From contig NZ_JABBPE010000004.1 of assembly GCF_012927455.1 (NCBI RefSeq), positions 92,218-156,217 of the forward strand: 64,000 nt of DNA, in the 5' to 3' direction. The DNA is from Polaromonas sp. (GTDB lineage: Bacteria; Pseudomonadota; Gammaproteobacteria; Burkholderiales; Burkholderiaceae_C). The notes under the pieces are model-generated. The model ran no database searches. It was not told where the DNA came from and worked only from the letters and a program-made list of their open reading frames with translations. The translations under genes were made by a program, and so were the position numbers. This document shows positions 8,245 to 51,932 of the stretch, in pieces. Each line of letters starts with the position of its first letter. Position 1 is the first letter of the stretch.

Positions 8245-9093
8245 ATGAATCACGCTTATATCCTGACCCTGTCCTGCCCCGACCGCAGGGGTATTGTTCA
8301 TGCCGTGTCCGGTTTCCTGTTCGAAAACGGCGGCAATATTGAAGAGGCCGCGCAATTCAACGACCATGACACGGGCCTGTTTTTCATGCGCGTGCAGTTT
8401 GCCTGCGAGCAGTTGGCGCACGAGCAACTGTCCGCCCGGCTGGCGGTCTTTGCCGAGCCTTTCCAGATGGAGTGGAAGCTGCACGACAGCGCGCAGCCGA
8501 TGCGCACCGTCATTCTGGTCAGCAAGGAAGGCCATTGCCTGAACGACCTGCTGTTTCGTGTCAAGTCGGGCCTGCTGCCGCTGGACATCCGCGCCATCGT
8601 CTCCAACCACCGCGAGTTCTACCAGCTCGCGGCCAGCTACAACATCGCTTTTCACCACCTTCCGGTGACGGCGGCGGGCAAAGCGCAGGTCGAGGCCAGG
8701 CAGCTGGAGATCATCGAGTCCGAAGGCGCCGAGCTGGTGGTGCTGGCGCGTTATATGCAAATCCTCTCACCCGCGCTGTGCGGCAAGCTGGCGGGCCGGG
8801 CCATCAACATCCACCACTCGTTTCTGCCCAGCTTCAAGGGCGCCAAGCCTTACTACCAGGCGCATGACCGCGGCGTCAAGCTGATAGGCGCCACCGCCCA
8901 CTATGTGACGGCCAATCTCGATGAAGGCCCGATCATCGAGCAGGATGTGGCGCGCGCCGACCACAGCAAGACGGTGGAAGACCTGACCGCCATGGGCCGC
9001 GACACCGAGAGCCAGGTGCTGGCGCGGGCGGTAAAATGGCACAGTGAACACCGGGTTCTCCTCAATGGTCACAAAACTGTTATTTTTAAGTAA
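8245..9093 (+). CDS. purU: Formyltetrahydrofolate deformylase
   Basis: 282 residues starting at the ATG of MNHAYILTLSCPDRRGIVHAVSG. The ORF-track start at 7966 is an artefact of an open frame over the neighbouring promoter. An N-terminal ACT domain (about 1-80) is followed by the formyl-transferase fold, with NIHHSFLPSFKGAKPYYQA and GATAHYVTANLDEGPIIEQD, which carry the catalytic Asn/His/Asp set of the PurU/PurN/Fmt group. The enzyme hydrolyses 10-formyl-THF to formate and THF, feeding PurT and balancing one-carbon pools. The gene ends only one base before a GC-rich repeat of family B. Confidence 0.93.
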   Translation: MNHAYILTLSCPDRRGIVHAVSGFLFENGGNIEEAAQFNDHDTGLFFMRVQFACEQLAHEQLSARLAVFAEPFQMEWKLHDSAQPMRTVILVSKEGHCLNDLLFRVKSGLLPLDIRAIVSNHREFYQLAASYNIAFHHLPVTAAGKAQVEARQLEIIESEGAELVVLARYMQILSPALCGKLAGRAINIHHSFLPSFKGAKPYYQAHDRGVKLIGATAHYVTANLDEGPIIEQDVARADHSKTVEDLTAMGRDTESQVLARAVKWHSEHRVLLNGHKTVIFK

Positions 9094-9200
9094 CCCCCAC
9101 GCTCCCCACTGCGTGTGGTTCGCTGCCCCCCGAGGGGGCCCTGCGCCTGCGGCCCGGCGAAGCCGGTTCCGCGGCCCCTGCTGGGGGGATGCGGGGGCGG
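9094..9200 (+). repeat. GC-rich dispersed repeat family B, copy 1
   Basis: The sequence contains cccccacgctccccactg, then ttcgctgccccccgaggggg, then ctgcgcctgcggcccg. The same order of blocks occurs at 21116-21205 and, inverted, at 31918-32012. It separates the purU stop from the LysR start. Confidence 0.7.
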
Positions 9201-10178: not shown

Positions 10179-10226
10179 GGCTGTAGCCCAATAACCACGG
10201 GCGCAAGAAGCTATATTATTAATAGC
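10179..10226 (+). repeat. Dispersed repeat family A, copy 2
   Basis: ggctgtagcccaataaccac, gggcgcaag and the terminal palindrome agctatattattaatagc. It lies in the 118-bp gap between the convergent LysR and response-regulator genes, where it may also act as a bidirectional hairpin. Confidence 0.78.
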
Positions 10227-11793: not shown

Positions 11794-11838
11794 GCTATTT
11801 ATTTTATAGCTGACTGCGCCCGTAAATAATGGGCTACA
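11794..11838 (-). repeat. Dispersed repeat family A, copy 3 (reverse orientation)
   Basis: Read on the minus strand it gives ctgtagcccattatttacgggcgcagtcagctataaaataaatagc, matching the other copies block by block. It occupies the immediate 5' flank of the pseudouridine synthase gene, where it would be part of the leader or promoter. Confidence 0.75.
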
Positions 11839-12309
11839 GGCATATTTGGTATGTAATTTTGGGCAGTTTGCGTTTCAACATGGCAGCTGGCGGCGAGCGA
11901 CCGCCGTTTCCGTGTTTCCGTGTTTCCAGGTTTCCGTGCGTCGGTGTTTGCACCGCGCCGCGCCTGCCTGCAGCTGTTGTCGCCGATGGCCTCGCACAAA
12001 CGCGGTCCGTGCTGCTGAAGCTATCGGGTCCAAATCTTCCTGAGTCTTGATTTTGCGCCCCTTGGCATTTTGAGCCCAACCGCCCCGGTCGAGTGCCGGT
12101 TTTGGGCCGGTCAAAAAAAATACGTATCGTTTTGGGACAGTTCGTCGCCTAAGCGGTTTGCCGAGTTGGTTTAGCCCGGTGTTTTCCCTTAAAGCCGGAC
12201 TATTTCAGACTTAGGACTATTGTTTTTTTTTGGGCGATTGCGCTTAATGACATACCAAATTTTTTTGGATCATTCTTAGACATTTGACTTTTACAAAGGG
12301 GAGCAAACC
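11839..12309. other. Intergenic stretch of about 470 bp, no supported gene
   Basis: Between the divergent pseudouridine synthase and sugar dehydrogenase genes I see no credible coding frame. The track ORFs here are short and compositionally poor. At about 11907-11943 there is a short imperfect tandem array of gtttccgt units. The last 100 bp are AT-rich (runs of T, caaatttttttgg) and probably hold the promoter of the dehydrogenase. Confidence 0.6.
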
Positions 12310-21115: not shown

Positions 21116-21205
21116 AAGCCCCCACGCTCGTCACTTCGTGTACTTCGCTGCCCCCCGGGGGGGGCCGCTGCGCCTGCGGCCCCTGCTGAACGGAGCACGG
21201 CCGGG
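21116..21205 (+). repeat. GC-rich dispersed repeat family B, copy 2
   Basis: The blocks gcccccacgctcgtcacttc, ttcgctgccccccggggggg and gctgcgcctgcggcccctgc follow the order seen at 9094-9200. It sits inside the transporter operon between livH and livM. The C/G run could form a strong hairpin and so give differential expression across the operon. Confidence 0.7.
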
Positions 21206-30654: not shown

Positions 30655-33153
30655 ATGCACATCCTTTGTCTGGGCGGTGGCCCCGCAGGCCTGTATTTCG
30701 CCCTGCTGATGAAATTGCAGAACCCGGCAAACCAGGTGACGGTGGTCGAGCGCAACCGCCCGTTTGACACCTTTGGCTGGGGTGTGGTGCTGTCCGACCA
30801 GACGCTGGTCAACCTGCAGAAGGCAGACCCGCTGAGCGCCCGGCTGATTGGCGACGCCTTCAATCATTGGGACGACATCGAGGTGTTTTTCAAAGGCCGC
30901 GCCGTTCGCTCCGGCGGCCACGGTTTTTGCGGCATAGGCCGCAAGCGGCTGCTCAACATCCTGCAGGAGCGCTGCCTGGGCCTGGGTGTTGACCTGGTAT
31001 TTGAAACCGACGCGCAGGACGACCAGGCAATTGCTGCGCAATACAGCGCCGACCTGGTGATAGCCAGCGACGGCCTTAACAGCCGCATTCGCAGCCGCTA
31101 CGCCGCTACTTACCAGCCCGACGTTGAGCTGCGCGCCTGCCGCTTTGTCTGGCTGGGCACCCACCAAACCTTTGACGCCTTCACCTTTGCCTTCGAGCAG
31201 ACCGAGCACGGCTGGTTTGCCGCCCATGCCTACAAGTTTGACGACGACACCTCGACCTTCATCGTCGAGACGCCAGACGCGGTGTGGAAGGCGCACGGCC
31301 TGGACCAGATGAGCCAGCAAGACGGCATTGCCTTTTGCGAGCGGCTGTTTGCCAATTACCTGGACGGCCACGCGCTGATGAACAACGCCGCGCATGTGCG
31401 CGGCTCGGCAATCTGGATCCGCTTTCCGCGTGTCGTCTGCCAGCGCTGGGTGCACCACGAAATATTGCCCCCAAAGGCCTTCGGCCTGGCCCCCCAAGGG
31501 GGCGCGCCTGGCTTGGGGCGGCCCGGCGCCGAGGCCATCGCCGGCAGGCGCGTGCCGATTGTGCTGATGGGCGACGCGGCGCATACCGCGCATTTCTCAA
31601 TTGGCAGCGGCACCAAGCTGGCGCTGGAAGACGCGATTGAGTTGACGCGCTGTTTTGCGCAGCACGCAAATGCCGACGAAGCGCTGCAGGCCTATGAAGC
31701 ACTACGCGCTGTGGAGGTGCTGAAGATCCAGAACGCGGCGCGCAACTCGACCGAATGGTTTGAGAACGTGGACCGCTACAGCGGACTGCAAGCCGAGCAG
31801 TTTTTCTACTCGCTGCTGACGCGTTCGCAGCGCATCAGCCACGAAAATCTGCGCGTGCGCGATGCCGCCTGGCTGCAAGGCTACGAGCAGTGGCTGGCGC
31901 ACCAAACTGCCCCGGCACATTCGGGTCGCGCCGCGAAGGGCATCCCCCCGCAAGCGACGGCTCCCTCTGAGGGCAGCGCAATATGCGAAGCGACAAGCGT
32001 GGGGGCCACCTGCCCGCCCATGCTGCTGCCGCTGACGGTGCGCGGCATCACGTTGAAAAACCGCATCGTCGTCTCACCCATGGCCATGTACAGCGCGGTC
32101 GACGGCGTGGCCCAGGACTTTCATTTGGTGCACTTGGGGGCGCGCGCCCTGGGCGGCGCGGCGCTGGTGTTTGTTGAAATGACCGCGCCTTCGCCCCATG
32201 GCCGCATTACCCCGGGCTGCACCGGCCTGTGGAACGACGTGCAGATGCTGGCCTTCAAACGCATCGCCGATTTTGTTCACGCCTCGGGCGCGGGCGCCAA
32301 AATCGGCCTGCAGCTGGGCCACAGCGGCCCCAAAGGCTCGACGCAGCTGGGCTGGGAAGCGCCCGATGAACCGCTGACCGAGGGCAACTGGCCGCTGCTG
32401 GCCGCCAGCGCCGTCGCCTACGGCCCGACCAGCCAGCGGCCGCACGCCATGACGCCGGAGGACATGGCGCTGCTGAAGAGTCAGTTTGTGCAGGCGACCC
32501 GGCGCGGCGTTGAAGCTGGTTTTGACTGGCTGGAGCTGCAATGCGCGCACGGCTACCTGCTGTCGAGCTTCATCACCCCGCTGACCAATCAGCGCAACGA
32601 CGAGTATGGCGGCAGCCTGGAAAACCGCTGCCGCTACCCGTTGGAGGTGTTCCGCGCGATGCGGGCCGTCTGGCCCGCGCTGCTGCCCATGAGCGTGCGC
32701 ATTTCTGCCCACGACTGGGCGCCCGGCGGCAACACCGACGACGACGCGGTGCAAATCGCCCGGCTGTTCAAGACCGAAGGCTGCGATTTCATCGATGTCT
32801 CCTCGGGCCAGACCACGCGCGCCGCCAAGCCGGTGTATGGCCGCATGTACCAGACGCCGTTCGCCGATCGCATCCGCAACGAAGTCGGCATACAGACGAT
32901 TGCCGTCGGCGCCATTTCGGAGGTCGACCATGTCAACAGCATCATTGCCGCTGGCCGCGCCGACCTGTGCGCGCTGGCCCGCCCACACCTGGCCGACCCG
33001 GCCTGGACGCTGCACGAAGCGGCCAAGCTGCAAAGCCAGCAGGTCAGCTGGCCCTTGCCTTACCTGAGCGGCCGGGACCAGCTGTACCGCGAGATTTACA
33101 AGCAAAAAGAGGCTCTAGCCCAAGAAGGGCGGGCGCAGCCTGCTATTAAATAA
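30655..33153 (+). CDS. 2-Aminobenzoyl-CoA monooxygenase/reductase (FMO-OYE fusion)
   Basis: 832 residues. The N-terminal half is a flavoprotein hydroxylase ([20 protein letters not shown] site; [25 protein letters not shown]). The C-terminal half from about residue 457 is an Old Yellow Enzyme ([41 protein letters not shown]). This fusion is known from Azoarcus evansii, where it hydroxylates and reduces 2-aminobenzoyl-CoA to 2-amino-5-oxocyclohex-1-enecarboxyl-CoA. Databases also name relatives bifunctional salicylyl-CoA 5-hydroxylase/oxidoreductase. Dispersed repeats lie in frame at about residues 271-297 and 422-453, and copy 5 of family A forms the last 14 codons and stop. By memory the family is about 780 residues, so the excess matches the insertions. 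Confidence 0.85.
31467..31545 (+). repeat. GC-rich repeat in frame within the FMO domain
   Basis: tgcccccaaaggccttcggc, ctggccccccaagggggcgc and cttggggcggcccggcgccg form nested C/G palindromes of a style common between genes in Comamonadaceae. Translated, it is [20 protein letters not shown], low-complexity and unlike the flanking fold. It lies just before the strand that carries the [11 protein letters not shown] flavin motif. Confidence 0.65.
31918..32012 (-). repeat. GC-rich dispersed repeat family B, copy in the interdomain linker
   Basis: The reverse complement reads gcccccacgcttgtcgcttc, gcatattgcgctgccctcag and agggagccgtcgcttgcggg. This parallels copy 2 at 21116-21205 (gcccccacgctcgtcacttc...). 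It encodes [20 protein letters not shown] and CEATSVGA between the FMO and OYE domains. Confidence 0.68.
33111..33153 (+). repeat. Dispersed repeat family A, copy 5, forming the 3' end of the monooxygenase gene
   Basis: ggctctagcccaagaagggc, gggcgcagcctgctattaaa and taa. It is read as [14 protein letters not shown]-stop, the same reading phase as copy 1 in the DUF3108 gene (EAAAQQPRAQAAIELIA). Confidence 0.7.
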
Positions 33154-33254: not shown

Positions 33255-33302
33255 GGCTCTAGCCCAATAACCACGGGCGCAAGCAGCTATTAATTACATA
33301 GC
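33255..33302 (+). repeat. Dispersed repeat family A, copy 6
   Basis: ggctctagcccaataaccac, gggcgcaagcagctattaat and tacatagc, ending 13 bp before the MarR start codon. It lies within 100 bp of copy 5, in the same orientation. Confidence 0.78.
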
Positions 33303-38421: not shown

Positions 38422-40134
38422 TTAAAACACTTCCCACTCGCCGGCCTTGGCAAGCTGGGGAGCTGCCGCCTGCCGGCGCTGCGGCGCGGCAATCGCCTGC
38501 CTGACTTGTGGCGGCTGCATCGGCGCCATACGGTGATTTGAGGCGGACCTGCGCCGGGGCCCGGCCACCAGACGGGGTTGCCCTTTGTCGTGTTTGAATA
38601 CGTTCACCCCCTCGACCAGCCCGCTGGCTTGCTCTTGCAGTGAGGCTGCTGCCGCGGCAGCCTCTTCAACCAGCGCGGCGTTTTGCTGCGTCACCTGGTC
38701 CATTTGCGTGATGGCCTGGTTGATCTGCTCGATGCCCGAAGTCTGCTCTTGGCTGGCCACGGTGATCTCGGCCATGATGTCGGTGACGCGTTTGACGCTG
38801 CCGACGATTTCGTCCATGGTCTTGCCGGCCTCTAGCACTTGCTTGCTGCCTTCTTCAACCTTGTCAACGGAGTCGCCTATCAGGGTCTTGATCTCTTTGG
38901 CGGCTGCAGCGCTTCGCTGGGCGAGGTTTCTGACTTCGGCGGCGACCACGGCAAAGCCGCGTCCCTGCTCGCCGGCTCTGGCTGCTTCAACGGCAGCGTT
39001 GAGCGCCAGGATGTTGGTTTGAAAGGCGATACCGTCGATCACGCCGATGATGTCGACGATCTTTTTGGACGAGCTGTTGATGGCGCTCATGGTGTCGACT
39101 ACTTGGGACACGACGCGACCGCCTTTGACCGCTACGTTTGACGCGGACTCGGCGAGCTGGTTGGCCTGGCGGGCGTTGTCGGCGTTTTGCTTGACAGTAC
39201 TCGTCAACTCTTCCATCGACGCGGCGGTTTCTTCAAGCGAGCTGGCCTGCTGCTCGGTGCGGGACGACAGGTCCATGTTGCCGGCGGCGATCTGGCTGGA
39301 GGCTGTGGCCACACTCATGGCGCGCTCAGCCACGTCGTCGACCAGTGAGTGCAGGTTCAGCCCTGCCTGGTTAACGGCGCGCAACAACATGCCTATTTCG
39401 TCTACCCGATTCAACCTGATGTTGCGGCCTGGTTGGCCGCTGGCGACCTTCTGGGCTTGTTCCAGAATGGCTGCCAGCGGCGAAGCCAGCTGCACCTCCA
39501 GCATCACTGCTCCGAGCACGGCACCTGCAAGCAGGCCTGCTGCCACAGCCACCAGAGATACGCCAGCCACCCCGACCGTCACGGCGGCAGCCAACGGTAT
39601 CGCAACCATCAGCGCTGCGGCAAGCCGCACGCGCCAACGTGCGGGCATCACCTGAAACGTCGAGGTCCAAGCCATCCAACCCGTGCGGACAATAACCCCT
39701 TTGCGAAACGCGAGGCCACGCGCGCTTCCTTCGCGAAATCGCCGATACAAGTCCTCGGCTGCGCGCACTTCCTGCAACTCGGGCTTGGTACGTACCGACA
39801 AGTAGCCTGTCACCACGCCACCACGCTGAATAGACGTTGCGTTCGCGCGTACCCAATAGTGGTCCCCGTTCTGCCGCCGATTTTTAATCAGTGCCGTCCA
39901 TGATTGACCGGCTTTCAAGGTGGCCCACATATCGGCGAAAGCCTGAGTGGGCATGTCCGGATGGCGGATCGCGTTGTGCAGCTGGCCCATGATTTCTTCA
40001 CGGCTGAAGCCGCTGACTTCTACGAACGCCGAGTTGGCATAGGTGATATGGCTTTGGGTATCGGTCGTGGACATCAGCGTCACGTCGTCCGGAAACTGAT
40101 ACTCGCGCTGCGTCACGGGTTGGTTGTTTCTCAT
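38422..40134 (-). CDS. Chemoreceptor 1: Aer-type PAS methyl-accepting protein
   Basis: 570 residues. An N-terminal PAS domain (about 10-125; [50 protein letters not shown]) is of the Aer/redox type, which binds FAD in E. coli Aer. It is followed by a hydrophobic hairpin (about 170-210), a HAMP-like region and the receptor signalling domain with [20 protein letters not shown] at the tip. The signalling part is nearly identical in DNA to chemoreceptors 3, 5, 6 and 7. The protein ends AGEWEVF, a CheR/CheB-docking pentapeptide of the xWxxF type. It probably mediates energy or oxygen taxis. It is the last gene of the chemotaxis run. Confidence 0.88.
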
Positions 40135-40392
40135 GCCAAACCTCCTCCCTTTTTAATAGGTTGATAGTGAATTTTTGAAGGACGACGCTGAAGGTCGCCA
40201 TTAAACTCGCGAACGCCTTCATCGGGCCTAATGGTTTGACATAAAACAGATCAGCTAAGGCGACAACTTGCTACTGGGCTGTTTTTTTTCAGAACCACAT
40301 GGCAGACAACGGCCCACTCAAGAAGAACTCAAAAGCGAGGGGCAGAACTATTCGCAACCCGCCATCGCCCATGAAATTTGTCAAACTACGAT

Positions 40393-42114
40393 TTAAAACT
40401 CTTCCCACTCGCCAGCTCCGGCAGGCACTGCGGCCGCCAGCCGCCGGGACGGCAAAGCGCCAGCCACGCGATTGCGCTGCGCTGCGGCAATGGCCTGTTT
40501 GGCCCGTGGCGGCTGCACAGGTGCCGTACGCTGATGGGGGATGGCCACCGTCCGCTGCGGCGCGGCCACAGAGTTGAGTTGCGTCTGACCGAGCTTGAAC
40601 ACGCTGACGACTTGCGACAAGCCGCTGGCTTGCTCTTGCAGTGAGGCTGATGCCGCAGCGGCCTCTTCAACCAGCGCGGCGTTTTGCTGCGTCACCTGGT
40701 CCATTTGCGTCACGGCCTGGTTGATCTGCTCGATGCCTGAGGTCTGCTGCTGGCTGGCCACGGTGATCTCGGCCATGATGTCGGTGACGCGTTTGACGCT
40801 GCCAACGATTTCGTCCATGGTCTTGCCTGCCTCAGCTACCTGCTTGCTGCCTTCTTCAACCTTGTCAACGGAGTCGCCTATCAGGGTCTTGATCTCTTTG
40901 GCGGCTGCAGCACTTCGCTGGGCGAGGTTTCTTACTTCGGCAGCGACCACGGCAAAGCCGCGTCCCTGCTCGCCGGCTCTGGCTGCTTCAACGGCAGCGT
41001 TCAAGGCCAGGATGTTGGTTTGAAAGGCGATACCGTCGATCACGCCGATGATGTCGACGATCTTTTTGGACGAGCTGTTGATGGCGCTCATGGTGTCAAC
41101 CACTTGCGACACGACGCGACCGCCTTTGACCGCTACGTTTGAGGCGGATTCGGCCAGTTGATTGGCCTGGCGGGCGTTGTCGGCGTTTTGCTTGACGGTA
41201 CTCGTCAACTCTTCCATCGACGCGGCGGTTTCTTCAAGCGAGCTGGCCTGCTGCTCGGTGCGCGACGACAAGTCCATGTTGCCGGCGGCGATCTGGCTGG
41301 AGGCTGCTGCAATGGTGTTGGTGCCGATACGGACCTGGCCGACGATGCCGACGAGGCTGTCGTTCATGTCTTTCAATGCTTGCAGCAGTTTTCCCGTTTC
41401 GTCTTTTGTCGTCACTTTGATAAGACTGGTCAAATCGCCAGCGGCGACGGTCTGGGCTACCTTCACCGCAGCATCTATCGGGCCGGTAATACTGCGGATT
41501 ATTGCTGTGGCAAGTAGGCTGACGCAAAGGACGGAAGCCAGCAGGACACCAATGATCAGCTGTTTCAAACGGGCAGCGTCTGCCTGTGCAAAAGATGCTG
41601 TATCGGTGGAGTTTTTTTCGATGAGATCGGATAACGCTGCCATTTCCTTTTCAACAGCGACGAATGTTTCCATGAACTTTGTCAAGCCGGCTTCACTTTT
41701 TTCGGGGCTGTCAAAGGCCAGCGCCACACCAGCCTGACTGGCTTTTAAATACGCGTCAACCAACGGGCGTACTTTGACTATTGCCAGCGCAATATTTGCC
41801 GTGAGCGGTAGTTCTTCATTAGCTTTGAGTGCATCCTGAAAAAATTTGAGGTGCTCCGCCAGTCCCTGCTCAATTGACTTTCGCTGATCGGCCTGTTTTA
41901 GGGTAGCCGCCAATGTCGCCGCCAGAATGTCGGCGCGCAATGCATCGTGCATCATGTCAGCCTCCATATGATTGCGCAGTGCTGCAGTCGCTGTGGAATT
42001 TTTCTGCAAAGCTCCTGCCATTTTGTATTCGCTCCAGAGGCTTGACGCGCCAATAGTCAGCAAAAATAGAATGGAGATCAGTGCAAACACAACCAGGCGT
42101 AACTTAATGCTCAT
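40393..42114 (-). CDS. Chemoreceptor 2: four-helix-bundle methyl-accepting protein
   Basis: 573 residues: TM1 ([18 protein letters not shown]), a periplasmic helical sensor of about 160 residues in the Tar/4HB style, TM2 ([21 protein letters not shown]), HAMP ([20 protein letters not shown]) and the signalling domain. The DNA of the signalling part matches the consensus of the other receptors but with more silent changes than receptors 1, 3, 5, 6 and 7. It ends AGEWEEF. A 258-bp gap separates it from receptor 1, in which I see no clear sigma-28 promoter. The ligand is unknown. Confidence 0.88.
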
Positions 42115-42230
42115 GATCTACTCCAGACGTTGGTGATTAAATGCACTAACTCATCCCGCACAGTCTTAATAGATGCGGGACTGAAAAACCATGGCGCTAA
42201 CAGCAGCCAACGAAACAATTTGAGGAAAAT

Positions 42231-43958
42231 CTAGTACTCGGCTTCGGCAAGTTCACCAACAACGGAAAATTTTTGGCGCGGCGGCCCCTCAATGGCCTGC
42301 TTGGCACGCGGCGGCTGTTTGGGCGCTATGAGCGGCCTGAGTGTGCCGGTGTGCGGGGGCGCGACCACCCGATGACCCTGCTCGCTGTCCAGCCTGAACA
42401 CACTGACCACCTGCGACAGTCCGCTGGCCTGCTCCTGCAGCGAAGCCGCAGTTGCGGCAGCCTCTTCAACCAGCGCGGCGTTTTGCTGCGTCACCTGGTC
42501 CATTTGCGTGATGGCCTGGTTGATCTGCTCGATGCCCGAGGTCTGCTCCTGGCTGGCCACGCTGATCTCGGCCATGATGTCGGTGACGCGTTTGACGCTG
42601 ATCACGATCTCGTCCATGGTCTTGCCGGCCTCTAACACTTGCTTGCTGCCTTCTTCAACCTTGTCAACGGAGTCGCCTATCAGGGTCTTGATCTCTTTGG
42701 CGGCTGCAGCGCTTCGCTGGGCGAGGTTTCTGACTTCGGCGGCGACCACGGCAAAGCCGCGTCCCTGCTCGCCGGCTCTGGCTGCTTCAACGGCAGCGTT
42801 GAGCGCCAGGATGTTGGTTTGAAAGGCGATACCGTCGATCACGCCGATGATGTCGACGATCTTTTTGGACGAGCTGTTGATGGCGCTCATGGTGTCGACT
42901 ACTTGGGACACGACGCGACCGCCTTTGACCGCTACGTTTGACGCGGACTCGGCGAGCTGGTTGGCCTGGCGGGCGTTGTCGGCGTTTTGCTTGACAGTAC
43001 TCGTCAACTCTTCCATCGACGCGGCGGTTTCTTCAAGCGAGCTGGCCTGCTGCTCGGTGCGCGACGACAGGTCCATGTTGCCGGCGGCGATCTGGCTGGA
43101 GGCTGTGGCTATGGTGTCGGTGCCCTGGCGGACTTTGCCCACAATGGTGGCAAGTTTGGACTGCATGTTTTTCAGTGCGAAGAGTAAGCTGGCGTCATCG
43201 CCTGGACGAGTCCTGACATCAACACTCAGGTCACCAGCCGCAATAGACCAGAGAACTCGCGCGGCGTAAGCAGGTTCACCGCCCAATTGACGCTGCAACA
43301 AGCGAGCTACCCCCACGCCCAAAGCAATACTGACCGCGATGCCGCCCAAGGCCATGGCCACCATCAACAGGCGCGACGCTTCGTATGTGCCGATCGCTTT
43401 TTCCATGCTCGTCTTAGCCCGCTGGTCACTGCGCACCACCATGTGCTTGAGAACCTCTTCGAGTGCACGGGAATCCTTCAACAACTGCGCGCTGTCCTCA
43501 GCCACTCGGCTGTCAAACTGCGTACTGTCCAAGGACTGCCTGGAAACCAGCGCCACAAAATCAGTCAGGCGCTGTTTCAGCGGTGGAATCAGCCCCTCAT
43601 ACTGCCGATACAGCTTGTTGCCTTCGGTGTCCTCATCAAACAGGAACTTGACCTCAGCCATACGGGTTTCGAGATCAGTCACGGCGGACTTTATCCCCAC
43701 CGCGTCGTATTTTCGCTCCCCTAGCGTGGAGGCCGAAAGCAGGCTCATTTGAGCCCGGCTGGCGTAAAGCAGATGGATGTTGGCCTCCTGGATGACCTTC
43801 AATGCCCGCATTTCGTGGCTGTAAAGACTTTCGGTTGAAGCACTAATACGCCCCATGTAAAAGATTCCAAGCCCACCTACCGCAGCACCCACCGCCGCAA
43901 CGAGCAAGAAACTAAGCACTAGCTTGACGGAGACACGAAGCTGATAGAACCACTGCAT
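42231..43958 (-). CDS. Chemoreceptor 3: methyl-accepting protein without docking pentapeptide
   Basis: 575 residues: TM1 ([24 protein letters not shown]), a 4HB-like sensor, TM2 ([22 protein letters not shown]), HAMP ([23 protein letters not shown]) and a consensus signalling domain. It is the only receptor here whose C-terminus lacks the xWxxF motif: it ends VGELAEAEY. The tail still has the common [14 protein letters not shown] block, so the last residues may have been lost or changed. Without the pentapeptide, CheR/CheB would have to modify it with help from neighbouring receptors in the array. Confidence 0.88.
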
Positions 43959-44163
43959 TATTTTTTTCCTTTGAGATTCTGTTGATATCGAATCGTACTG
44001 GCAGGGATGACGGCTGATCAGACTTGAATATTTAGCACTTGGTGATCAGCGCAACTCCGAATCCTCATGACCGGGGCGGCGAGCGTACAGCTATGAAGCG
44101 GGATGCCGACATCCTGGCAAAGCAAGCTGACAAGCCTGCATGAACGAACGTCGGGTCATCAAA

Positions 44164-45936
44164 CTAAAACTCTTCCCACTCGCCGGAAGGCGTGGCGGCC
44201 GCCAGCTGCCTGGACGGCATAGGCAAGCTGCCCCGCTTGGGTTTGGTTACGGTGATGGCCGGGTTGGCCGCCGGCGGCCGCCGGTGCGTGGGCTGCTGAT
44301 GGCTCGCTACCGTGCGCCGGGACGGGATCGCGTCAATTTGCTGGCCGCCCTCGAGCCGGAATAAGCTGACCACCTGGCTCAAGCCGCTGGCCTGCTCTTG
44401 CAGCGACTGCGCCGCTGCCGCCGCCTCTACGACCAGCGCCGCGTTTTGCTGCGTCACCTGGTCCATCTGCGTGATCGCCTGGTTGATCTGCTCGATGCCC
44501 GAGGTCTGCTCCTGGCTCGCTGCCGTGATCTCGGCCATGATGTCGGTCACGCGCTTGACGCTGTCGACGATCTCGTCCATCGTCTTGCCCGCTTCAAGCA
44601 CCTGCTTGCTGCCTTCTTCGACCTTGTCGACCGAGTCGCCGATCAAGGTCTTGATCTCTTTGGCCGCCGCCGCCGAGCGCTGGGCCAGGTTTCGGACCTC
44701 GGCTGCCACCACCGCAAAGCCCCTGCCTTGCTCGCCGGCCCGCGCCGCTTCGACCGCCGCATTCAAGGCCAGGATATTGGTCTGAAAGGCGATGCCGTCG
44801 ATCACGCCGATGATGTCAACGATCTTTCTGGATGAGGTGTTGATCACGCCCATGGTCTGCACCACCTGGGCAACGACTTGGCCGCCCTTGACGGCTACGC
44901 CGGAGGCCGAGACCGCCAACTGGTTGGCCTGGCAGGCGTTGTCGGCGTTTTGCTTGACGGTGCTCGTCAGCTCTTCCATCGAGGCGGCGGTTTCTTCCAG
45001 CGAGCTGGCCTGCTGCTCGGTGCGGGACGACAGGTCCAGGTTGCCCGCGGCAATCTCGCTGGACGCCGTGGCCACCGCATCCACATTGGCGCTGATATCG
45101 GAGACCACCGCCAACAGGTTGGCGCTCATCTGATTCAAGGCGAGCAGCAGGGGTTTGGCCTCGTCAGTGGGATGTATCTCGAACTTGACGAGATCACCCC
45201 CGGCAATGGCTCGCGCCACTTTGGCGGCATTGTCCAAAGGACGGAAAACCGTGCGGACAAGGAAGTAGCCAAAGCCAGCCCAGGCCAGCGAAGAAGCCAC
45301 GACACCAGCCGCAATAACATCAGGCACCCAATCGGCCTGGCTCGATGACATGGCCAGCAGACTGACTTCGCGCCAGGCCAGCCCCCCCAGCACCAGTGTC
45401 AGCGTGGCAGCCAGGGCCGTTGCCCCGAGAACCCGTTGAGAGATCGGAATTCGGCGCACGCCCGCCATGGGTGCAGCCCACAGCGGCTTGACCACTTCAC
45501 CCCGGTGAATGCTTAACCCGGCTGCATGGCCCTCCCTGAACTTGCGATAAAGCTGCGCAGCCTCGACCACCTGCGAGGGTTCAGGTCTGTTGCGCACTGA
45601 CATGTAACCCTGGGTCACGCCGTTCTGGCGTATCGGGGCGACGTTGGCCTGTACCCAGTAAAAGTCGCCATTCTTGCGCCGGTTCTTGACCAGACCGGTC
45701 CATGGCAGGTCGCTGGCCAGCGTTTTCCACATGTCGGCAAAGGCTTCTGCCGGCATGTCGGGATGCCGAAGAATGTTGTGCGCCTTGCCTGTCAGTTCGT
45801 GCAGGTCGAAGCCGCTGACCTCGACAAAGATCGGGTTTGCATAGGTGATGCGTCCCTTGAGGTCGGTGCGAGATACCAGCGCCTTGTCGTGAGGGATTTT
45901 GTATTCGTTGTTCGTGACAGGTAGGTTGACACGCAT
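44164..45936 (-). CDS. Chemoreceptor 4: Aer-type PAS protein with diverged DNA
   Basis: 590 residues. It has a PAS domain like that of receptor 1 ([50 protein letters not shown]), a hydrophobic stretch (about 175-245), a HAMP-like segment and the signalling domain. The protein sequence of the signalling domain is nearly the same as in the others, but silent positions differ widely (for example gccgccgccgagcgctggg against gctgcagcgcttcgctggg). This copy has therefore escaped the homogenisation. Its 3' end, including the tail, matches receptor 5. It ends SGEWEEF. Likely redox or energy sensing. Confidence 0.88.
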
Positions 45937-46026
45937 GGTGGGTATCTCCGTTTAAAGACGGCTGAAAAATGACAGGGATGTTGACTCACTCGCCAGCGTC
46001 GCTGGGCAGCGATCCTCACCCCCGGC

Positions 46027-47745
46027 TCAAAACGCTTCCCAATCACCTGCGCTTGTGGGCGTGGCGGCCGCCAGCTGCCTGGACGGCATAGGCAAGCTGC
46101 CCCGCTTGGGTTTGGTTACGGCGATGGCTGGGTTGGCCGCCGGCGGCTGCAGGTGCGCGGGCTGCTGATGGCTCGCTGCCGTGCGCCGGGACGGGATCGC
46201 GTCAATTTGCTGGCTGCCTTCGAGCCGGAATACGCTGACCACCTGGCTCAAGCCGCTGGCCTGCTCTTGCAGCGACTGCGCCGCTGCGGCGGCTTCTTCG
46301 ACTAGCGCCGCGTTTTGCTGCGTCACCTGGTCCATTTGCGTGATGGCCTGGTTGATCTGCTCGATGCCCGAAGTCTGCTCCTGGCTGGCCACGCTGATCT
46401 CGGCCATGATGTCGGTGACGCGTTTGACGCTTCCGACGATTTCGTCCATGGTCTTGCCTGCCTCTAACACTTGCTTGCTGCCTTCTTCAACCTTGTCAAC
46501 GGAGTCGCCTATCAGGGTCTTGATCTCTTTGGCGGCTGCAGCGCTTCGCTGGGCGAGGTTTCTGACTTCGGCGGCGACCACGGCAAAGCCGCGTCCCTGC
46601 TCGCCGGCTCTGGCTGCTTCAACGGCAGCGTTGAGCGCCAGGATGTTGGTTTGAAAGGCGATACCGTCGATCACGCCGATGATGTCGACGATCTTTTTGG
46701 ACGAGCTGTTGATGGCGCTCATGGTGTCGACTACTTGGGACACGACGCGACCGCCTTTGACCGCTACGTTTGACGCGGACTCGGCGAGCTGGTTGGCCTG
46801 GCGGGCGTTGTCGGCGTTTTGCTTGACAGTACTCGTCAACTCTTCCATCGACGCGGCGGTTTCTTCAAGCGAGCTGGCCTGCTGCTCGGTGCGCGACGAC
46901 AGGTCCATGTTGCCGGCGGCGATCTGGCTGGACGCAGTGGCTATGGTGTCGGTGCCCTGGCGGACCTCGGATATGGCGTCCACCAGCTTGTCGCGCATGG
47001 TGTTCAGTGCACCCATCATGGCGCTCACTTCATCATTGCCGTGGTCGGTCGCTGCGGCATCAAGATGGAGCTCGGCCAATTCGTTGGCCCTTTTTGTTGC
47101 CATATTCAAGCGTTTCGACATGCTGCGCACCATCAAAATGGTAAAAGTTAAAGCCCCTGCAATCACTAAAACACAACTAACCAGCATCCAGGTTGCGACA
47201 GTTTGCAAGTCGGCGTTACGCTGCTCGGACCCGGCTTCGGCTTCCTTGCTCAAAAGGTTGATTAGCTTTCCAATCGCAGCGACCGTTGAACGCCCTGCAG
47301 GAGTGAGATCCCTGTCGCGCAGTATGGCGGCTTCTTCTATCTCGCCGCCGATCAGCTTATCAACCCAACGCACACGAGCGGTAGCGTATTTTTTATAGTT
47401 TTCATTAACATCACGCATAGCCGCACGACTCGAATCGGACAGCGGAAGACTAGAAAATGTTTGAACGTGCTTATCAAAATCAGCATAGTTTTTGCTGTCG
47501 CTTTGTACGAGTTTTTGTCGCTCATCTGAATCCGCAATACTTCGATATTGAGCCGTTCCCAAGCGCAAAGCCCACAGCGAGCTGTTGGCATCCGCAAGAG
47601 CAGCGGTGGCCAACGTCTCGCTTTTGTAAGTACGTTCATTGGCATCACGGGTTGTACTTGATTGCCACAGTGCAACGCCGCAGACACTGACCAGGCTGGT
47701 AATCAGGCCGCCGACCAGCCATTGAAGTTTTGAAGTTATTTTCAT
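46027..47745 (-). CDS. Chemoreceptor 5: methyl-accepting protein, mosaic
   Basis: 572 residues: TM1 ([18 protein letters not shown]), a 4HB-like periplasmic sensor, TM2 ([20 protein letters not shown]), HAMP and the signalling domain. The gene is visibly mosaic. From the stop to about 46290 its DNA matches receptor 4. From about 46276 to 46945 it follows the common type of receptors 1, 3, 6 and 7. The sensor part is AT-richer and unique. It ends AGDWEAF. It lies 90 bp before receptor 4. The ligand is unknown. Confidence 0.88.
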
Positions 47746-47875
47746 TATGTGTATTCTGGATTCACGTATTGGCTGGCTTCATGACACGGCCCGTAAAGCC
47801 AACGCCATCTTGCGGCGCGGCATCAGCGTGCCCAACCAAATTCGTCAGCTTGTTGTAGATTGCATGAGCGCCTTT

Positions 47876-49612
47876 TTAGAACTCTTCCCACTCGCCTGCC
47901 CCAAGAGGCACTGCGGCTGCAGCAAGCCGCCTGGATGGCAAAACGCTTGCGCCCTGCTGGCGCTGCGGTGCTGCAATAGCGTGTTTGGCTGGTGGAGGCT
48001 GCCGGAGCGCCGAGCGCGCCTGGGCGGCTGCTGCGCGCCGGGCTGGGGCCACTGAGTTGCTCTGCTCTTGATCAAGGTTGAACGAACTCACGACTTGCGA
48101 CAAGCCGCTGGCTTGCTCTTGCAGTGAGGCTGCTGCCGCGGCAGCCTCTTCAACCAGCGCGGCGTTTTGCTGCGTCACCTGGTCCATTTGCGTGATGGCC
48201 TGGTTGATCTGCTCGATGCCTGAGGTCTGCTGCTGGCTGGCCACGCTGATCTCGGCCATGATGTCGGTGACGCGTTTGACGCTGCCAACGATCTCGTCCA
48301 TGGTCTCGCCTGCCTCTAACACTTGCTTGCTGCCTTCTTCAACCTTGTCAACGGAGTCGCCTATCAGGGTCTTGATCTCTTTGGCTGCTGCAGCGCTTCG
48401 CTGGGCGAGGTTTCTGACTTCGGCGGCGACCACGGCAAAGCCGCGTCCCTGCTCGCCGGCTCTGGCTGCTTCAACGGCAGCGTTGAGCGCCAGGATGTTG
48501 GTTTGAAAGGCGATACCGTCGATCACGCCGATGATGTCGACGATCTTTTTGGACGAGCTGTTGATGGCGCTCATGGTGTCGACTACTTGGGACACGACGC
48601 GACCGCCTTTGACCGCTACGTTTGACGCGGACTCGGCGAGCTGGTTGGCCTGGCGGGCGTTGTCGGCGTTTTGCTTGACAGTACTCGTCAACTCTTCCAT
48701 CGACGCGGCGGTTTCTTCAAGCGAGCTGGCCTGCTGCTCGGTGCGCGACGACAGGTCCATGTTGCCGGCGGCGATCTGGCTGGAGGCTGTGGCTATGGTC
48801 TCGGTGCCCTGGCGGACTTCTCCGACGATCTTGACCAGGCTGGCGTTCATGTCTTTTAGCGCTTGCAGCAGCTGGCCGGTTTCGTCCTTGGAGTTGACTT
48901 CGATATGGCTGGTCAGATCACCGGCGGCAACGGTCTGCGCAACTTTGACCGCGGCATTGATCGGGATCGTGATGGATCGGGTGATGAGCCATGCGATAAA
49001 CGTGCCCAGCAGCACCGCCAGGCCGGTCAGCGCCAGCATGAGCAGCAGCGTCGAGTTGTACATCTCTTCGACCGCGGCCACCTCCAGCTTGTTGACGGCC
49101 CTCTGCATTTCGATGTTCTCGTCCAGTGTAGCGAGCCATTTCGTCGTCGCAGGGCCTGCCTCCTTCAGCAGCAGCTCGATAGCCTCGACGTCCTTGTTGG
49201 CCTTGGCCAGCGCGATTACCTTGTCGTTGAGCGGCCGCGCGGCGAGCCGGGCATCCTTCATCTTGATGCGGATGGCCTTTCCCTCCTCGCTCGTTGCGGT
49301 CTTTTCCAGGGCTTCGAGGGCGGTGTTGTACTTGTTGCGGGCGTCCTCAATCTTCTTCATTTCAAACGCAATGGCCGCCTCGTCGCTGAGCAACACCATA
49401 GTGCGGATCACGCGCGACACCACGTGCACGGCCTCAATCATGTCCTCCACCAGAATCATCTTGGCGACATCGACATTGACAATCTCGTCAAGCGACCGTT
49501 TCGTCTGACTAATGCCGTTGATGCCAATTCCTGCCACGCCTGTCAGCAAAAGCAGCACGATAGCGAAGCCGGAGCCCAGGCGAGTGCCAATCTTTAAGTT
49601 TTTTATATTCAT
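47876..49612 (-). CDS. Chemoreceptor 6: four-helix-bundle methyl-accepting protein
   Basis: 578 residues: [31 protein letters not shown] (TM1 of the common 4HB_MCP type), a periplasmic helical sensor rich in Lys/Glu, TM2 ([22 protein letters not shown]), HAMP ([26 protein letters not shown], very like that of receptor 2) and the consensus signalling domain. It ends AGEWEEF. It follows cheW by 50 bp in the transcription direction and so is the first of the six receptors downstream of cheW. Confidence 0.9.
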
Positions 49613-49662
49613 ATTTAATCCTTGCAGGTTCGATCAATGCGATGAGATTGATGCTTCATTGA

Positions 49663-50193
49663 CTAGGGGGTTCCAACCGCCAGTTTTTCAATCAGGCCCA
49701 TCTCGCTGCTGGACATCAGCTTGTCCAGATCGACCAGTATCAGCATGCGCTCGTCCAGCGTTCCCAGACCAATCAGGTAGGCCGTGTCCAACACCGAGCC
49801 CATCTCGGGCGCCGGCTTGATCTGCTCGGGCGTCAAGGTGATCACGTCCGATACGCTGTCAACCACCATGCCCATGACTCGGCTGGCCAGGTTGAGTATG
49901 ATCACCACGGTGAACTGGTCGTAAGTCGGCGTTCCCAGGTTGAACTTGATGCGCATGTCAATGATGGGCACGATGATGCCGCGCAGATTGACCACGCCTT
50001 TGATGTGCTCGGGCGCATTGGCGATACGCGTGACGGTGTCGTAGCCGCGCAGCTCCTGCACCTTCTGGATATCAATGCCGTATTCTTCCTGGCCCAGCGT
50101 GAAGGCCAGAACTTCCATGGCCGCGGTGGCGGATGCCGCCGAAGATACGTCTACTGGGGCGGCGGAGTTGGAATGGTTTGATGCGGTGTGCAT
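49663..50193 (-). CDS. cheW: CheW chemotaxis coupling protein
   Basis: 176 residues with a Ser/Ala-rich N-terminal extension of about 25 residues. The CheW fold follows: [50 protein letters not shown] and [23 protein letters not shown]. It links receptors to CheA in the cytoplasmic arrays. It is placed between two receptor genes, 20 bp after chemoreceptor 7. Confidence 0.93.
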
Positions 50194-50213
50194 GATTTTT
50201 AAATGGCTTGTAT

Positions 50214-51932
50214 TTAGAACGTTTCCCAGTCGCCATCGGCGGTGGCCAATGCGGGTGCGGGGGCTGACTTGCGATGCGGCGCGGCGATGGCGTGTTTGGC
50301 GCGGGGTGGCTGCTGGTGTGCAGGCGCGCGCCTGGCAGCTGCCGTGCGCTGAGGTGCTGGCGCATGATCAAGCCGACTGTCATCGAGCTTGAACACACTG
50401 ACGACTTGCGACAAGCCGCTAGCCTGCTCTTGCAGCGACTGCGCCGCTGCGGCGGCTTCTTCGACTAGCGCGGCGTTTTGCTGCGTCACCTGGTCCATTT
50501 GCGTGATGGCCTGGTTGATCTGCTCGATGCCCGAAGTCTGCTCCTGGCTGGCCACGCTGATCTCGGCCATGATGTCGGTGACGCGTTTGACGCTTCCGAC
50601 GATTTCGTCCATGGTCTTGCCTGCCTCTAACACTTGCTTGCTGCCTTCTTCAACCTTGTCAACGGAGTCGCCTATCAGGGTCTTGATCTCTTTGGCGGCT
50701 GCAGCGCTTCGCTGGGCGAGGTTTCTGACTTCGGCGGCGACCACGGCAAAGCCGCGTCCCTGCTCGCCGGCTCTGGCTGCTTCAACGGCAGCGTTGAGCG
50801 CCAGGATGTTGGTTTGAAAGGCGATACCGTCGATCACGCCGATGATGTCGACGATCTTTTTGGACGAGCTGTTGATGGCGCTCATGGTGTCGACTACTTG
50901 GGACACGACGCGACCGCCTTTGACCGCTACGTTTGACGCGGACTCGGCGAGCTGGTTGGCCTGGCGGGCGTTGTCGGCGTTTTGCTTGACAGTACTCGTC
51001 AACTCTTCCATCGACGCGGCGGTTTCTTCAAGCGAGCTGGCCTGCTGCTCGGTGCGCGACGACAGGTCCATGTTGCCGGCGGCGATCTGGCTGGAGGCTG
51101 CGGCAATGGTGTTGGTGCCGATACGGACCTGGCCGACGACTTTGGCCAGGCTATCGCGCATCGTTTTCATTGCGAACAGCAAGCTGGATTGATCGTTGAC
51201 TTTGGTATTGACCGTTACCGCAAGGTCACCTGACGCAATTTGTCGGGCGATGTCGGTGGCCTCTTCTGGCTCACCGCCGATTGACCTCTCAATGCCGCGA
51301 ATGACAAGCAGAACTATCGCGCTTAAAGCAATGCCAATGCCGCAAAGCAGTAGAGCGGATCTCCACAGATTTTGAATAAAGGCATCGCGCAAGTCGTCCA
51401 GATAGAGCCCCGTGATGAAGGTCCAATCCCAAGGCTTGAAGGTTAGAACATAAGCGCCCTTGGGAAACACCTGCTTTTGATCTGCATTGCCGGGCTTTGT
51501 CCATACATATTCGATCCAGCCTTCTCCCACACCTTTTGCGATGCTCGCAACATTCTTATATAAATATTGACCGTTCGGATCCTTAAAATCAGCGACATCT
51601 TTGCCCACAATTTCCGGCTTCATAGGGTGCATGAGCATGGTCGGCTGAGAATTGATAACGGTGTAATAACCATCCTTCCCATAGCGCATGGCTTTAAGCC
51701 TAGCCAGCGCCTGTTTTTGCGCCTCCGCCAGCGGCAATGCACCTGACGAAGCCAGATCGGCATATTCCTTGACCGTTGACATCCCCACGTCAGTCGCAAA
51801 CTTCAAGGCGATCTGGCGTTCTTCAAAACGCAGGAACTTGGCCTGAAAAATTGCAACCGTGGTGATGCCCAATAGGCAAAACCAGCTAACAACGAGCGGC
51901 AGATAGAGTTTGGTGCGAAATGTTAGTTTCAT
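50214..51932 (-). CDS. Chemoreceptor 7: single-Cache methyl-accepting protein
   Basis: 572 residues: TM1 ([21 protein letters not shown]), a periplasmic single-Cache domain ([63 protein letters not shown]), TM2 ([19 protein letters not shown]), HAMP and the common signalling domain. Single-Cache receptors of this form often bind small organic acids (family knowledge). It ends DGDWETF, the closest match in the set to the E. coli NWETF. It lies between cheA (44 bp) and cheW, the usual place of the primary receptor in betaproteobacterial che operons. Confidence 0.9.

Follow-up and report, generated by a model that had tools for sequence, protein, structure and literature searches.

The window, a 64,000-nucleotide stretch of a Polaromonas genome, carries on its plus strand an unbroken open reading frame of 832 codons (30655..33153), and the encoded 832-aa protein matched the family model NF006101 at 1344 bits against a cut-off of 1078, with protein residues 1-823 lying on profile positions 1-765 of 768. 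The protein is about 58 residues longer than this profile. Pfam domains FAD_binding_3 and Oxidored_FMN were also found, and the product is, as judged from these matches, a bifunctional salicylyl-CoA 5-hydroxylase/oxidoreductase-type enzyme with an N-terminal flavin monooxygenase and a C-terminal old-yellow-enzyme domain (FMO-OYE). Adjacent genes encode enoyl-CoA hydratase, acyl-CoA dehydrogenase-like and benzoate-CoA-ligase-like proteins. The best relatives of the protein are Polaromonas proteins, and its alignment with 109 relatives (110 sequences in all, several of the relatives being from metagenome assemblies) showed its conserved motifs to be unbroken. Further along the window, at 38474-50697, seven stretches of about 300 nt, mostly 77-98% alike and spaced 1.8-2.3 kb apart, resemble a tandem array of paralogous genes.

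The repeats in and around this gene were studied with iterative DNA profiles run on 1.264 Mb, consisting of the window and 60 further stretches and amounting to 28% of the 4.47 Mb, 22-contig genome to which the window belongs; ORFs were called by a home-made codon-usage gene caller. Two families were followed, family A (about 50-60 bp, AT-richer) and family B (about 84 bp, with a 71% GC core and three hairpins). The first profiles counted 227 A and 62 B copies in this sample, and profiles built from intergenic copies only, at a threshold of at least 20 bits, counted 208 and 62, respectively. Within the window, B copies that were intergenic by the gene caller lie on the minus strand at 21118..21163 (39.4 bits) and 9093..9140 (36.9 bits), and A copies at 10179..10226 (plus strand, 47.5 bits) and 11794..11841 (minus strand, 47.1 bits). 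Reversed DNA and codon-shuffled genes gave zero matches of 15 bits or more, and shuffling of synonymous codons with the protein kept gave top scores of 23.3 (B) and 22.7 (A) bits; together with the intergenic-only profiles, these three controls ruled out an artefact of composition. In family B, which has three helices, every one of the eight pairs of helix 1 and one pair of helix 3 showed compensatory changes, and 76.5% of stem cells paired versus at most 45% in slid controls. RNAalifold gave weak structure support for family A. An Rfam search of the elements returned no credible match, and a plasmid search found B-like matches only in two Comamonadaceae plasmids and no match for family A.

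The first insert in the FMO-OYE gene, at site S1 (31461..31536, minus strand, hence inverse to the gene), lies in frame in the FAD domain and adds 24 residues (269-292) about 14 residues upstream of the GDAAHT flavin motif. The S1 segment measures 2-7 aa in 102 of the 110 aligned proteins versus 30 in that of the window, and the DNA of empty and filled sites was consistent with the gap in the protein alignment. By its own profile, the palindrome at 31467-31545 was a single copy in the 1.264 Mb sample. Its minus strand, however, matched positions 1-35 of the B profile, the first half only, at 13.6 bits, a score that none of 500 dinucleotide shuffles reached (best shuffle 9.0 bits). The S1 palindrome is therefore taken, from this modest match over half the element, to be a strongly diverged B variant, and two families rather than three are counted. 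A third repeat family in the gene was thus rejected; the preliminary description had listed the palindrome apart from families A and B.

The second insert, at site S2 (31926..32012, plus strand, the strand of the gene; residues ~421-450), is an in-frame, BRE-like B element at the junction of the FMO and OYE domains. Its profile core (31938-32006) scored 47 bits, or 40.8 bits with the intergenic-only profile, the stretch 31918-32012 had 52 matches in its own genome, and the stem arms GTCGC/GCGAC were preserved. S2 is mostly 4-13 aa long in relatives versus 37 in the window, an insert of about 30 aa. In an AlphaFold model built with 46 sequences, the domains on either side were predicted better than the inserts, with pLDDT below 50 at residues 271-291 of the S1 insert and at residues 421-450, the latter between two well-predicted domains. 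Both peptides therefore look like disordered loops in the model, and the S2 insert would probably occupy the inter-domain linker.

The presence of two inserts in one gene could suggest that the gene is decaying, the inserts being tolerated because the enzyme is unneeded. This is highly improbable given that all 832 codons are open, the motifs are intact, codon scores on both sides of the S2 insert are normal (0.42 and 0.30) and the neighbouring aromatic-CoA genes are intact; moreover, elements of the same kind sit in PurL, MoeA and DapE, genes not expected to be dispensable. The enzyme has probably retained its activity despite the inserts.

The third element, of family A, makes up the final 14 codons together with the TAA stop (33111..33153, plus strand) and scored 35 bits with the intergenic-only profile and 38 bits with the first profile; a second A copy (33255..33302, plus strand, 53.6 bits) lies between the host gene and the next gene. 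L036, L039, L042, L122, L048 and other relatives, many of them Polaromonas, also have an A element that lies at the stop codon or spans it, with weak matches reaching Acidovorax. In L039 the element supplies the stop codon, while in the window that triplet is altered and translation continues to the next TAA. Since the element spans the stop in relatives and gives the stop in L039, an independent fresh insertion was ruled out, and the 3' copy is, on this comparison of gene ends, an ancestral element absorbed as C-terminus and stop. A-derived segments were additionally found after residue 338 in L097 and L125. The preliminary description, which held that three repeats had been retained in frame in this one gene, thus stands for the two inner elements, which are true in-frame insertions bounded by gaps against the aligned orthologues, have further copies in the genome and, in the structure model that it had asked for, form low-confidence loops; it was also right that the A element provides the last codons and stop, but that element is not a third insertion of the same sort.

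Copies inside genes were frequent and not peculiar to the FMO-OYE gene, with 23 of the 62 B and 38 of the 208 A copies lying within ORFs (intergenic-only profiles, 1.264 Mb sample), and family scans identified many of the element-bearing ORFs as conserved genes, such as those for MoeA, PurL, GlnD, ComEC, NadE and DapE. Every B copy tested against relatives added length, namely those in the FMO-OYE gene, MoeA, PurL, a regulator-like gene and a G100 gene (G100 being a close relative, the pairwise test against which drew on 29 reciprocal best hits between sampled stretches and yielded two gap tests). DprA, for which a wrong ORF had been compared, was left out of the tally. The B insert in MoeA was absent from all 13 relatives. 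Added length was likewise seen for A copies in MoeA, PurL and DapE, and only some Polaromonas have the A-derived peptide of DapE, which drifts among its carriers. Other A matches brought little or no added length relative to homologues, as in LigA (L149:1894-1937), PurK (L189:1001-1046), benzoate-CoA ligase (L158:11266-11308), NadE and DadA. These five genes ruled out that all genic A matches are insertions, so that some of the A count does not reflect simple insertion. The A-matching segment of LigA scored 30.5 bits here versus 4.3 in a same-genus relative, with no gap; one guess is that length-neutral matches arose by insertion followed by a compensating deletion.

Some genes held several copies. 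A ComEC-like gene (L180:13580-16360) carries four, three of family B and one of family A, all in frame, and GlnD (L148:14490-17342) carries three tandem B copies, also all in frame. The tandem B units within genes were multiples of 3 in six of six cases (81, 84 and 102 bp), and intergenic units measured 82, 83, 84 and 84 bp. The numbers are small, and a selection filter would account for them with no need of a length preference; the earlier suggestion that the elements themselves prefer frame-neutral lengths is not demonstrated by these units.

The two inner sites of the FMO-OYE gene were also found occupied in other genera, with B-profile matches at S1 and S2 in both orientations, many of them with E below 1e-6. 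Independent occupation of S1 was seen in the Polaromonas MAG L038, whose B variant has the opposite orientation, and in several Hydrogenophaga; S2 carries elements of either orientation in several Polaromonas and Hydrogenophaga and in other relatives. On a quick tree, with gains and losses pooled, parsimony required a minimum of 5 changes at S1 and 11 at S2, or 13 when orientation was considered. The B element at S2 of L032 has flank and stem arms in common with the window copy, and its nearest kin, L040 and L041, are empty, a pattern for which recent turnover, precise loss or transfer are alternatives. At B-element sites in other species a third, unrelated repeat kind was observed (peptides like PPLPRGEGWGEG or PPEGEGLGERG), in PurL of L300 and L311 (after query residue 614) and at S2 of L064.

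The genic B copies of this genome sample, 23 of 23 in 17 genes, used only two of the six reading frames, giving by inspection peptides of the type APTL..LPPEGA.. or ..APSGGS....SVGA; in an automatic count the window copy falls into a third frame, owing to an indel close to its 5' end. Among 19 full-length intergenic B copies, every one of the six frames was open in 12-18 (63-95%), so that by openness two frames would account for about 0.38 of chances and 17 of 17 genes would have p ~1e-7, a figure of post hoc arithmetic. As read off the consensus, the used frames encode bland Gly/Pro/Ala/Ser peptides and the unused ones basic or Cys-rich/hydrophobic peptides. Other genera use other B frames at S2, as does the S1 palindrome of the window, and the bias therefore concerns only the typical B copies in this sample of the genome.

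Recurrence at S1 and S2, the PurL site with two unrelated repeat kinds and the use of two frames could all be attributed to insertion machinery that favours certain target sequences, site recurrence and frame bias then owing nothing to selection. We consider this unlikely. At S1 the independent insertions have different orientations, and their starts are spread over a few codons rather than fixed at one nucleotide, no common target motif or duplication was seen, and the unrelated repeats at one PurL site fit loop tolerance better; the basic or Cys/hydrophobic peptides of the unused consensus frames likewise speak against target preference. Less probable still is that the elements are kept because they are useful, whether as an mRNA hairpin that stabilises the transcript or causes a pause between domains, or as a flexible linker. 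That the same two sites are occupied repeatedly in several genera, that the stems are constrained and that S2 lies between two well-predicted domains would agree with such a use, but most relatives, even very close ones (L032 versus L040/L041), are empty at both sites, one site is filled by differing variants, orientations and frames, and the A-derived peptide of DapE drifts freely among relatives.

As candidate movers of the elements, two genes for REP-associated tyrosine transposases, the enzymes of REP/RAYT systems (REPtrons), were found in the sampled genome, at L201:1168-1875 (minus strand, 80.2 bits) and L202:549-1391 (plus strand, 80.0 bits), both with the model NF047646 (REP_Tyr_transpos) and a cut-off of 80. 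It is possible that these REP-type transposases move the elements, although neither has strong A or B copies on its flanks, with a weak A match (9 bits) beside L201 and none at L202. No clear target-site duplication of the kind that marks a classical MITE was found when S1 was compared with empty sites, the relatives compared being strongly diverged, and no mobility signal of the elements was found. The elements are presumably mobile.

Repeated insertion of BRE/REP-like elements, with selection as the filter, very probably explains the pattern in the gene and in the genome. The short, non-autonomous palindromic repeats of families A and B would have spread through the genome with the help of a mover that acts in trans. 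A copy arriving in a gene would be lost if it breaks the frame, adds a stop or disturbs folding; survivors would keep the frame, bring no stop, lie in a surface loop or linker that tolerates them and code for a bland peptide. In the FMO-OYE gene two B copies would have survived, the diverged one in an FAD-domain loop and the other in the linker that joins the two flavin domains, both looping out as disordered segments while the enzyme keeps working, and an older 3' A copy would have been taken over as C-terminus and stop codon. Selection probably acts as the filter of genic copies, and the view that insertion had been repeated with survival of functional alleles, put forward for this gene alone, is now supported well beyond it by the genic copies elsewhere and by the recurrence across relatives.

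Short repeats are usually treated as intergenic, and here tens of them lie in frame in conserved enzymes of a free-living bacterium. As close relatives differ in their presence or absence, matched filled and empty alleles provide a natural experiment, which informs on which loops tolerate insertion, on selection upon the peptide and on how a repeat becomes protein sequence. Caution is also warranted in that gene models and structure predictions in this family contain repeat-derived loops. The broader proposition is evenly balanced: in free-living Comamonadaceae, BRE-like repeats may constitute an ongoing source of in-frame insertions above the Rickettsia scale, with enzyme loops being hit again across genera and, in this genome, only two-frame peptides surviving.

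The precedents of RPE, WPE, intragenic REPs and BRE mean that the kind of event is already known. Rickettsia palindromic elements (RPE; Ogata et al. 2000, 2002) occur both in intergenic regions and in frame in conserved protein genes (PMC2229807, PMC10969869), and an RPE-bearing guanylate kinase is made and active (PMC2229807). A and B resemble RPE in being short, palindromic and present both between genes and in frame inside conserved ones; as for RPE, in-frame insertion with insert-free orthologues was found in the FMO-OYE gene, MoeA, PurL and DapE, and self-complementarity with conserved stems was found for B, a likeness of functional class and not of homology. RPE, however, measure about 105-150 bp and belong to an obligate intracellular alphaproteobacterium, whereas A and B are unrelated families of 50-90 bp in a betaproteobacterium, with about 200 genic matches per genome (extrapolated from 28%, part of the A matches not being simple insertions) versus tens in R. 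conorii. Wolbachia (WPE) and enterobacterial RU-1/ERIC, RU-2 and RU-3 are small mobile repeats likewise fused in frame to genes (PMC2229807), but in unrelated hosts. Intragenic REPs (Di Nocera et al. 2013) lie in ORFs of many free-living bacteria, often in DNA-repair genes; their termini often provide a stop codon, and recB was struck at about one site in two Xanthomonas species (PMC3733652). They share with A and B the habit of palindromic repeats in ORFs of a free-living bacterium, but the GTAG/CGTC REPs are tagged and 20-40 bp long, while B exceeds them in size, forms three hairpins and showed no tag of this type; the study makes no mention of Polaromonas (PMC3733652). BRE (Hot et al. 2011) are elements of about 90 bp (75-91 bp) and about 69% GC that are single or tandem and dispersed, with most copies in Polaromonas sp. 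JS666 (29) and some wholly inside coding sequences (PMC3110155). B, with its tandem unit of 81-84 bp (102 in one variant), 71% GC core, dispersed distribution and partial location in ORFs, is probably BRE, a likening by size, GC content and tandem habit that compares descriptions rather than sequences. The analysis of BRE did not extend to reading frame, orthologues or insertion sites (PMC3110155). New here are the proof from orthologues, the scale seen in a single genome sample, the recurrence at the same sites in different genera and the bias in frame.
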